The translations under genes and the position numbers were made by a program. 50,807 nucleotides of DNA. Origin: Clostridia bacterium. GTDB taxonomy: Bacteria > Bacillota > Clostridia > Oscillospirales > Acutalibacteraceae. The notes under the pieces are model-generated. The model ran no database searches, was not told the DNA's origin, and worked only from the letters and a program-made list of their open reading frames with translations. Shown one piece after another: positions 32,785 to 50,741 of the stretch; position 1 is the first letter of the stretch; every line of letters starts with the position of its first letter. The stretch is from contig JAFXAK010000026.1 of assembly GCA_017517135.1 (NCBI GenBank), positions 1 through 50,807 on the forward strand, in the 5' to 3' direction.

Positions 32785-33054
32785 TTAAAAAATAGCAGAA
32801 ATTATGGCTGCTGCGACCGCTCCGGCAGAGGCTGAAAGAAAGATTTTTACCGCTTCGCCTTTGCCTTTTTTTCTTTTTTTATGCTTCGTTGACGGAGGCT
32901 CAGATGTGTCCTTTATAAGTGCATCCGCCTTGCTTCTGAGCTTTGCTTCACCCAGTCCGTAAAACTCGGGTTTAACAAAAAATAACACCCTTTCAAAGTA
33001 CACGCTCTCGGGCTGAGAGACCTCCACAACCTGTCTGTTAACACCTTTCAACAT
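32785..33054 (-). CDS. small conserved protein with C-terminal membrane segment
   Basis: 89 residues from the ATG at 33054, which has GAGGAAAAG upstream (the frame opens 21 codons earlier at 33117). It starts MLKGVNRQVVEVSQPESVYFERVLFFVKPEFYG, which looks well conserved in character (an aromatic/Glu-rich hairpin), is followed by a basic linker (KHKKRKKGKGE) and ends with a small-residue membrane helix (AVKIFLSASAGAVAAAIISAIF). No function known to me. It is next to mnmE in a convergent arrangement; the DNA upstream is the gene-free 33.1-33.48 kb stretch. Confidence 0.65.
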   Translation of the reverse strand: MLKGVNRQVVEVSQPESVYFERVLFFVKPEFYGLGEAKLRSKADALIKDTSEPPSTKHKKRKKGKGEAVKIFLSASAGAVAAAIISAIF

Positions 33055-33117
33055 ATGCTTTTCCTCTTTTATTTTGATTACAATACAATTTTTATCCGCC
33101 GAGATAAAATTATTCAT

Positions 33118-33482
33118 TTCAGCTTAAAAAAGCCTTGTCAAGTGCGTTTTGCCATAAATGTTAACAAAAAAAGTGCAAGGCTTTTATACAATTTAAATGT
33201 AAGTGCTTTTATACTCATTGTATAATGTTGAAAACTTGAAAATTGTTAAAAAGTATGTTCAAAATGTTAATAACTTACGGCAAAATACCTTGATAAGCCT
33301 TGTTTTTAACACTAAAAAGTTATGAACATCGGAAGATTGTTAAATATTTAACATATACAGCTTGTTGTCTTACCTTTCTTGTTATACAAAATGGATATAT
33401 TTTTTAAATAAAATTTACCGAAAATTTTATTTAAAATCACAAATAGCCTTTTTTGGCAAAAAAAGCTTTTTCGGGAGAAAAA
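33118..33482. other. gene-free AT-rich stretch with a cluster of TTTTNAACA nonamers
   Basis: No gene is seen in these 365 bases. Nonamers related to TT(A/T)TNAACA: reverse-strand copies at 33226, 33244, 33256, 33265 and 33338; forward copies at 33303, 33320 (TTATGAACA) and 33345. The last two pairs form a perfect palindrome TGTTAAATATTTAACA (33338-33353). The same nonamer class occurs between dnaN and dnaA. It could be a DnaA-binding cluster (part of the origin or a titration site), inference only; no canonical TTATCCACA is present. Confidence 0.5.
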
Positions 33483-49112: not shown

Positions 49113-49412
49113 CCGATATCCTCCGTTCGGTTTTTAACCTTTTTTTCTTAATTGAAATGAAATTTTCCCCCCTCACAGGGGTAAGGATTGTTTTAAAAAT
49201 AGTAGTAGTAGTAGGGGCTGTTGAAATTGTTTAAAAGTCCGGTAAGCATTGATATTACTGAAAAATTTAACCGTTTTTCAGTTTTGATAAAATTTTGATA
49301 AAATTTTAATTCAACAATTCTTTTTTTCAGAATGTTTACAATGTTGAAAAAGAGATGTTGAAAAGTGAAAACTTGTTCAAAACTTTCCTATAATTTCCTG
49401 CTTTTTTTGATG
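49113..49412. other. oriC: candidate origin unwinding region between dnaA and dnaN
   Basis: No gene lies here. On plus it holds five consecutive TAG triplets (49200-49214), identical to the DnaA-trio pattern that DnaA uses to open origins, a GGGGC patch after them, two back-to-back nonamer-like words at 49219-49227 (TGTTGAAAT) and 49228-49236 (TGTTTAAAA), long AT-rich runs (49261-49330), and further TGTTGAAAA copies at 49342 and 49356 and TGTTCAAAA at 49374. No TTATCCACA was found. In Bacillus the dnaA-dnaN gap is the unwinding site, which supports the reading. The promoter of dnaN should also lie here. Confidence 0.65.
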
Positions 49413-50741
49413 TTATTTTTCCTGAAATTCCTTGATTGTGTTTATGACAAGAAGCTTCACGGAAGCACTTTCCTGCATTTTTTCCTCTGCACATTTAAGA
49501 GAATGCAGAACTGTTGAGTGGTTTTTATCGAAAATTTCTCCGATTTCCTTAAGAGTTAAATCTGTTACTTCTTTTATAACATACATAGAAATCTGTCTTG
49601 CAAGAGTGATTTTAGCCTGTCTTTTATCAGATTTTATATCTGCCAAGGTAACATTGTATGTCTGGGCAATTCTTTCCATTATTTTATCGGTTATAACGGA
49701 AATCGGCTGATTGTCGGTTGTTATATCCTTGATTATGTTCTGAACCTGCTCAATTGTTACGGGTGTGCCGTATGCCTTGCTCATAGCGTCAATCTTTTTA
49801 ACCGTACCCTCAAGCTGACGGATATTGTTTTTGATTTTCTGAGCTATGTATTCTGTAACAGAATCGCTGAGCCTTATGCCTAACTGTTCGCATTTTCTTT
49901 TTATGATTGCTTTTCTTGTGTCTATGTCAGGCGGCTGAATATCAGCTATAACACCCTGCTCGAAACGGGTTCTCAGTCTCTCATCAAGACCTGCCATTTC
50001 TTTGGGAGGAATATCGGATGTGATAACAATCTGCTTTCCTGCCTGCTGGAGAACATTGAAGGTGTGGAAAAATTCCTCCTGTACGGATTCACCGCGCTGA
50101 ATTATCTGGATATCATCCATCAAAAGAGCATCTACATTTCTGTACTTATTATGGAAGTGATCCATATTCTTGTTGTAGATATCCTTAACAAGCTCATTCA
50201 TAAAGTTTTCACCGGTGGTGTAAATAAGAATTGCATCGGGATTCTGTGCTTTGAGCTTGTTATAAACAGCGAGCATAAGATGTGTTTTTCCCAATCCGCT
50301 TCTTCCGTATATGAGAAGAGGATTGTATTTTGTGCCGGGCTCCTCGCAAACACCTCTTGCAACATTGTATGCAAAGGTATTTGATTTTCCTACTATGAAA
50401 TTATCAAATGTAAAGCCTGAAAAAGCATTCTGTGACTCTTTATTTTCAGGTTCTGATTTATTTTCTTTTTTATCTGAAGAATTGTCTGATATAGTTTTAT
50501 CAACTATTATATCAATTTCAACGGGGAAGCCTAAAACCTGCTCGAAGCCGTCTTTTATAATACCTGAAAATTTATCCTGTATTATAGATTTCTTATAGTC
50601 CGCACTTACAAGGAAAACAACCGTGTCATTTTCAAATTTTATAAATTCCAAGGGTGCAAACCATATATTATAAAGAGGCTGTGCAACCTGAGCTTTGCAG
50701 ATATTCAGTACCTCTTTCCATACATCGTTAAAAGTATCCAT
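49413..50741 (-). CDS. dnaA: chromosomal replication initiator DnaA
   Basis: Binds DnaA boxes and opens the origin in the ATP form. 442 residues. Domain I 1-80 (WKEVLNICKAQVAQPLYNIWFAPLEFI), short linker about 85-107, AAA+ domain about 110-325 with FTFDNFIVGKSNTFAYNVA, Walker A YGRSGLGKTH (145-154), Walker B LLMDDIQ, sensor I ITSDIPPKEM and the Box VII Arg in DERLRTRF; domain IV helix-turn-helix about 345-442. The DNA-recognition loop reads DKNHST (405-410) instead of the usual GRDHTT. AGGAG precedes the ATG; only 66 bases upstream are in the window. Confidence 0.96.
   Translation of the reverse strand: MDTFNDVWKEVLNICKAQVAQPLYNIWFAPLEFIKFENDTVVFLVSADYKKSIIQDKFSGIIKDGFEQVLGFPVEIDIIVDKTISDNSSDKKENKSEPENKESQNAFSGFTFDNFIVGKSNTFAYNVARGVCEEPGTKYNPLLIYGRSGLGKTHLMLAVYNKLKAQNPDAILIYTTGENFMNELVKDIYNKNMDHFHNKYRNVDALLMDDIQIIQRGESVQEEFFHTFNVLQQAGKQIVITSDIPPKEMAGLDERLRTRFEQGVIADIQPPDIDTRKAIIKRKCEQLGIRLSDSVTEYIAQKIKNNIRQLEGTVKKIDAMSKAYGTPVTIEQVQNIIKDITTDNQPISVITDKIMERIAQTYNVTLADIKSDKRQAKITLARQISMYVIKEVTDLTLKEIGEIFDKNHSTVLHSLKCAEEKMQESASVKLLVINTIKEFQEK

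Follow-up and report, generated by a model that had tools for sequence, protein, structure and literature searches.

The window, a contig of 50,807 nt that is complete in itself, carries dnaA on its minus strand, with dnaN, an S4-domain gene and recF coming after it; the ORFs after recF we take to be gyrB and gyrA. The DnaA_N, Bac_DnaA and Bac_DnaA_C (PF08299) domains all score above the Pfam cut-off in the dnaA product, identifying it as a DnaA, and a genome-wide profile search returned one DnaA_C match in the window's genome. The protein aligns with the B. subtilis DnaA chain of 8btg across residues 1-418. A sequence-only reading of this DNA had claimed that the loop that recognizes DnaA boxes departs from its usual form, and translation confirms this: the segment encodes F-D-K-N-H-S-T, so that the loop reads FDKNHSTV in the window DnaA compared with GGRDHTTV in B. 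subtilis (in the alignment, IGEIFDKNHSTVLHS and IGEEFGGRDHTTVIHA). K406-N407-H408 align to R-D-H in B. subtilis DnaA (8btg) and to K-D-H in Aquifex DnaA (1l8q), and Asn407 occupies the position of E. coli Asp433. In place of the Asp-His dyad at 433-434, the window DnaA thus has Asn407-His408. Asp at 433 is typical of DnaA and is not required for membership, being found in 273 of 366 DnaAs. At the Pro423 equivalent the window DnaA has Lys. E. coli numbers follow in part those given in the accessible text of PMC7561715.

Table 1. Features of the window, in positions counted from its first nucleotide
Feature	Position	Strand	Basis
dnaA, 442 aa	49413..50741	minus	Pfam domains and alignment to known DnaAs
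Recognition loop F404-T410 (FDKNHST)	49512..49532	minus	reverse complement translated
Asn407 codon (E. coli Asp433 equivalent), covarying residue	49521..49523	minus	alignment and covariation scans
dnaA-dnaN intergenic gap, putative unwinding part of oriC	49113..49412	minus	sequence and layout score
Box TTTTGAACA	49374..49382	minus	box search
Box TTTTCAACA	49356..49364	minus	box search
Box TTTTCAACA	49342..49350	minus	box search
Distal box of putative BUS, TTTTAAACA	49228..49236	minus	box search and layout score
Proximal box of putative BUS, ATTTCAACA	49219..49227	minus	layout score
GC cluster GCCCC, separating box from trios	49214..49218	minus	sequence and layout score
DnaA-trio repeat TACTACTACTACTA	49200..49213	minus	sequence and layout score
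dnaN, downstream neighbour of dnaA	48003..49112	minus	TIGR00663
Second array, four boxes at 33226, 33244, 33256 and 33265 (A6 in all four)	33226..33273	minus	box search
Second array, two boxes at 33303 and 33320	33303..33328	plus	box search

The nonamers with A in place of the usual C that had been claimed for this DNA are also real. TTTTNAACA occurs four times within the 300-bp dnaA-dnaN gap and 23 times over the whole window, where 6.8 are expected and none of 100 shuffles reaches 23. The canonical form TTWTNCACA, by contrast, is absent from 49113-49412 and occurs four times in the whole window against 5.8 expected; no cluster of it lies beside dnaA, upstream of which the contig holds just 66 bp. 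Genome-wide (G000), TTTTCAACA is found 252 times compared with 27 for the reversed pattern, about nine times as often, an excess that perhaps stems in part from the frequent codon string GTT-GAA-AA. Because TTTTCAACA is so common, only its clustered intergenic copies carry weight. Below, C6, A6 and G6 denote the letter at base 6.

Within the gap, the two BUS-like boxes, the GC cluster and the trio repeat abut end to end on the dnaA strand, from 49236 down to 49200, in the arrangement of a basal unwinding system (BUS). Our own layout score, which demands tandem co-oriented boxes, a GC spacer and trios and uses bases 1-4 and 7-9, gives the window gap 20.5, the 99% threshold from shuffles being 16.05, and 235 of 334 dnaA-dnaN gaps exceed their 99% threshold. 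As the score ignores bases 5 and 6, it could serve as a ruler for reading the trio-adjacent boxes of each genome. The window belongs with the Asn genomes, and its A6 boxes stand in a putative two-box, GC and DnaA-trio unwinding layout. Folding of the origin-strand DNA gave nothing notable (z -1.0), and the top 8-mers listed for the 300 bp upstream of dnaA in the genus contain no box-like word.

The comparison covered 366 distinct DnaAs, after removal of 10 duplicate proteins: 27 from the window's genus, 140 from the rest of its family (together the 167 rows of f1, hereafter the family) and 199 others, namely 94 from the order, 29 from the class and 76 from named genomes. Each search contributed its best-scoring loci, at most 30, so that canonical loops are over-represented in the class and order rows; all family-search matches were included except the partial match G169, and the order sample of 72 stretches and 27 new loci holds the best-scoring among the matches listed. 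A dnaA-dnaN gap below 60 bp led to 32 of the 366 rows being dropped, and of the 334 left, 99 did not reach the threshold for anchoring. The tree, a FastTree of DnaA minus domain IV, contains 364 rows, two being too short. L002 and L027 are two different DnaAs in one assembly (genome G025); L002, probably a contaminant from another lineage, was still tallied with the Asp rows of the genus.

Residue 433 in the family is Asp in 102 rows, Asn in 32, His in 21, Thr in 6, Lys in 4, and Ser and Gln in 1 each; in the 199 other sampled rows it is Asp in 171, His in 17 and Asn in 11. All 29 class rows have Asp, though as best-scoring matches they are biased to canonical loops. Over all 364 rows, the tree requires a minimum of 35 Asp/non-Asp changes, counted without direction. 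For the family the minimum is 16, or 10 if His is set aside, and for the other rows it is 20. The notion of a lineage-specific origin code is not borne out by this recurrence, nor by the use of His, Thr, Lys, Ser and Gln as well. A search of the class with KNH[SA]TV, a pattern that misses RNH and KNHTT loops, matched 21 of 391 genomes, and the window's own protein was the sole DnaA among the matches. None of the 140 family rows from beyond the genus has Pro at the Pro423 equivalent, and in 43 of them Arg399 is K, Q, H or N. His434 (window residue 408) is Tyr in 17 of the same rows, and the box letters of these show no clear change.

At base 6 the residue classes part. Anchored boxes with C6 occur in 119 of 167 Asp genomes versus 4 of 40 genomes with Asn, Thr, Lys or Ser, and those with G6 in 1 of 167 versus 18 of 40; C6 is absent from all anchored boxes of the 22 anchored Asn-loop family genomes. 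Unanchored counts in the family give, for Asp genomes, 94 C6 against 10.9 expected and 4 G6 against 7.5, and for Asn genomes 3 C6 against 3.6 and 11 G6 against 3.0. Because the anchoring score uses bases 1-4 and 7-9 and omits bases 5 and 6, we recounted the family gaps with one box base free at a time, compared with shuffled sequence, which is a partial repair. Base 6 in this count is A 158, C 80, T 6 and G 3 for Asp; A 75, G 9, C 3 and T 2 for Asn; A 22, G 6, T 3 and C 2 for Thr/Lys/Ser/Gln; and A 49, C 27, G 5 and T 2 for His. The telling changes are the loss of C6 and the appearance of G6, not A6.

Supported branches of the tree provide 13 independent pairs. As a mean of 200 pairings, G6 follows the predicted direction in 6.5, the opposite in 0.0 and is equal in 6.5 (median p 0.031, range 0.008-0.063); for C6 loss the values are 6.4, 0.5 and 6.1 (median p 0.039, range 0.004-0.375), half of the pairs thus being without a box difference. 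Pagel-type tests of correlated evolution gave likelihood ratios (LR) of 39 with G6 and 31 with C6 for the non-Asp class, and of 33 and 21 for Asn alone, values from our own script in which some fitted rates lie at their bounds and which few events can inflate. When DnaA columns were scanned against the nine box positions, Asn407 with base 6 was the top pair after APC correction and Asn407 was 7th of 421 columns for base 6 without it, in a scan that favours bases 5 and 6, the boxes having been scored on bases 1-4 and 7-9. In a tree-corrected scan of 379 DnaA columns, Asn407 came narrowly first for G6 (2.47, with T258 next at 2.33); for C6 loss it fell outside the top eight, which S414, E424 and I389 lead.

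Exceptions to the pairing lie mostly outside the family, where C6 occurs in 6 of the 11 Asn genomes that have sites. The four C6 exceptions among Asn, Thr, Lys and Ser genomes comprise L335 and L356, on poor boxes, and L361 and L362, which are clear; L335 has in addition one TTGTCCACA elsewhere in its gap. Of the 27 anchored His genomes, 13 have C6 and 4 have G6; His genomes were kept apart from the non-Asp class because their C6 pairs and tests were not significant and their G6 p was 0.043. S414, the A440 equivalent, was considered as a cause of C6 versus A6 in Asp genomes and set aside, having no clear effect (with Ser, C 35, A 34 and T 1; with Ala, C 122, A 81, T 4 and G 1).

Base 5 in the one-base-free family count is mostly C with Asp (140/241), Asn (51/87) and His (49/81). 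With Thr, Lys, Ser or Gln it is never C, and is G in 13 (0.3 expected), A in 12 and T in 5, G5 numbering 10 with Asp. The anchored boxes of Thr/Lys/Ser genomes alone show a weaker effect (C 4, G 5, A 6 and T 5), and the effect comes from few lineages (5 pairs, not significant); the base 5 shift is a lead. Genomes of this class, whose pooled counts show the move from C to G or A in boxes of the dnaA-dnaN gap, include L013, L016, L044, L083, L106 and L117. The preferred letters at bases 4, 7 and 8 (T, A and C) do not differ between classes, T4 and A7 standing some 7 to 10 fold above expectation in each class.

A second box array lies about 16 kb from dnaA, upstream of an ogg-like glycosylase gene (Table 1), and may be a second origin part or a DnaA-titration or regulatory site. 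The ogg-like gene was matched in 9 of 27 genus genomes, of which 7 have four minus-strand boxes at spacings of 18, 12 and 9 and 2 have part of the array. A three-box pattern free at bases 5 and 6 was found in 44 of the family's 150 genomes and in 17 of the 27 from the genus, its reversed control in none. Excluding G045 and G121, which have the array and no DnaA match, and G169, base 6 in the arrays is C 50, A 46 and G 0 for Asp; C 1, A 91 and G 4 for Asn/Thr/Lys/Ser; and C 10 and A 5 for His. By genome, 20 of 28 Asp and 1 of 25 non-Asp genomes have C6 (Fisher p 5e-7, kinship ignored), and 0 of 28 and 4 of 25 have G6 (p 0.043, kinship ignored). Asn407 ranks 13th of 418 columns by raw association in this set, which offers four independent pairs only, so that the array repeats the direction of the effect and does not, taken alone, tell interaction from kinship. 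Next to the array, a 110-aa ORF (32785-33117) has no NCBIfam match.

One account of the window would be a specific pair in which Asn reads A at base 6, replacing Asp with C6 in one lineage. A6 is indeed the main letter in the Asn genomes of the family, and the sequence-only reading had proposed a link between the two. However, A6 sites outnumber C6 sites two to one in Asp genomes of the family, Asp members of the window's own genus (L014, L017 and L021) also carry TTTTNAACA, and the association of Asn with A6 on the tree is not significant (LR 5.25, p 0.26). We consider such a pair quite unlikely and reject it. The proposed pairing, Asn with A for C, was thus wrong in detail, A6 being common to Asp relatives; of the wider proposal that DnaA and its box changed jointly, the covariation with base 6 and the lack of C6 in the anchored Asn genomes of the family stand, and the idea that Asn means A does not.

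Shared ancestry or base composition might also have removed C6 and Asp from the same clades without any interaction, as could be argued from the several other DnaA columns that track C6 and from the few independent pairs of the array set. Against common descent stand the independent pairs and the correlated-evolution tests at the dnaA-dnaN gap. Intergenic GC does not account for the contrast at base 6: a gain of G6 is no AT effect, mean GC is 0.319 for Asp and 0.325 for non-Asp genomes, and the contrast persists in the GC-richest bin (C 90, A 13, T 2 and G 1 for Asp; A 14, G 10 and C 5 for non-Asp). This explanation is, in our judgement, unlikely. Still less do we favour relaxed selection, by which the reading surface of the family's DnaAs would have grown sloppy and its sites have drifted; the changes at the Pro423, Arg399 and His434 equivalents would suit it, whereas the boxes remain sharply defined at T4 and A7 in each class and the origin layout recurs across gaps. 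We hold it to be very unlikely.

The best explanation, to which we assign a probability of roughly 0.65, is that DnaA and oriC in the window form an ordinary pair with a recognition code rewritten at residue 433, a residue that would help to set box bases 5-6. Bases 5-6 vary in step with the residue class, base 6 doing so at two loci. At the level of sequence, the family shows a covariation code in which Asp and His go with C5 and with C or A at base 6, His admitting some G; Asn goes with C5 and with A, and some G, at base 6, C being at chance level; and Thr, Lys, Ser and Gln go with G or A at base 5 and A or G at base 6. This suggests that protein loop and origin sites evolved jointly, as a lock does with its key. 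We infer that residue 433 takes part in reading bases 5-6, probably by direct contact. Asp, as a hydrogen-bond acceptor, would favour the amino groups of C or A, and Asn, Thr, Ser and Lys would donate to purine N7, A suiting both modes. That A suits both would account for the presence of A6 in every class, for the scarcity of G6 in Asp genomes and for a switch that passes through no dead intermediate. Boxes may then have drifted from C6 to A6 under Asp, with DnaA changing later, and an A6 bridge would allow the change of an essential initiator, along with the many sites it reads on the chromosome, while replication continues. That residue 433 and bases 5-6 form an initiator code rewritten many times by one family, with A6 as this neutral bridge, we put at even odds. 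Counting against a role at base 6, D433 and L438 are reported, in the part of PMC8235120 available, to matter for base 7 and not 6. Base 7 is unchanged in the family, which would mean either that the side chain reaches across both base 6 and base 7 or that its replacement shifts the helix.

The DnaAs of E. coli, B. subtilis and C. difficile have a domain IV of the same family, likewise a helix-turn-helix reading 9-bp asymmetric boxes between dnaA and dnaN, whereas the window has Asn at Asp433, Lys at Pro423 and TTTTNAACA instead of TTWTNCACA. Altered helix-5 residues have likewise been proposed to accompany an altered box core, TTCAC, in Epsilonproteobacteria; the accessible portion of PMC5043019 gives T at base 5 in 33 of 33 boxes, names residues 435 and 438-439 as the proposed cause and calls the 433-434 dyad highly conservative. 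In the family, in contrast, residue 433 itself changes, along with bases 5-6. Among the matches listed in a literature search, mostly of non-subscription text, covariation of residue 433 with base 6 was absent from titles and the openings of abstracts, PMC5043019 being the nearest. With at least 16 changes at residue 433 over the sampled tree, or 10 without His, and changes in the sites to match, the family offers a natural experiment on the joint evolution of an essential DNA-reading protein and its sites, and origin finders based on TTATCCACA-like boxes may miss its origins.

The B. subtilis BUS, as described in the available parts of PMC8287927 and PMC10721633, consists of co-oriented boxes, a GC-rich spacer and 3'-GAT-5' trios. 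The window resembles it in its two co-oriented boxes, short GC spacer and 3'-GAT-5' trios, strand opening there being putative, and differs in that its boxes are of the A6 kind and the equivalent of the trio-reading Arg202 is His. B. subtilis Arg202 contacts the DnaA-trio guanine, according to the accessible text of PMC10721633. The window residue aligned with it is His197 (50151-50153); this equivalent is also His in 73 of the 140 family rows outside the genus, and the window trios are still GAT.
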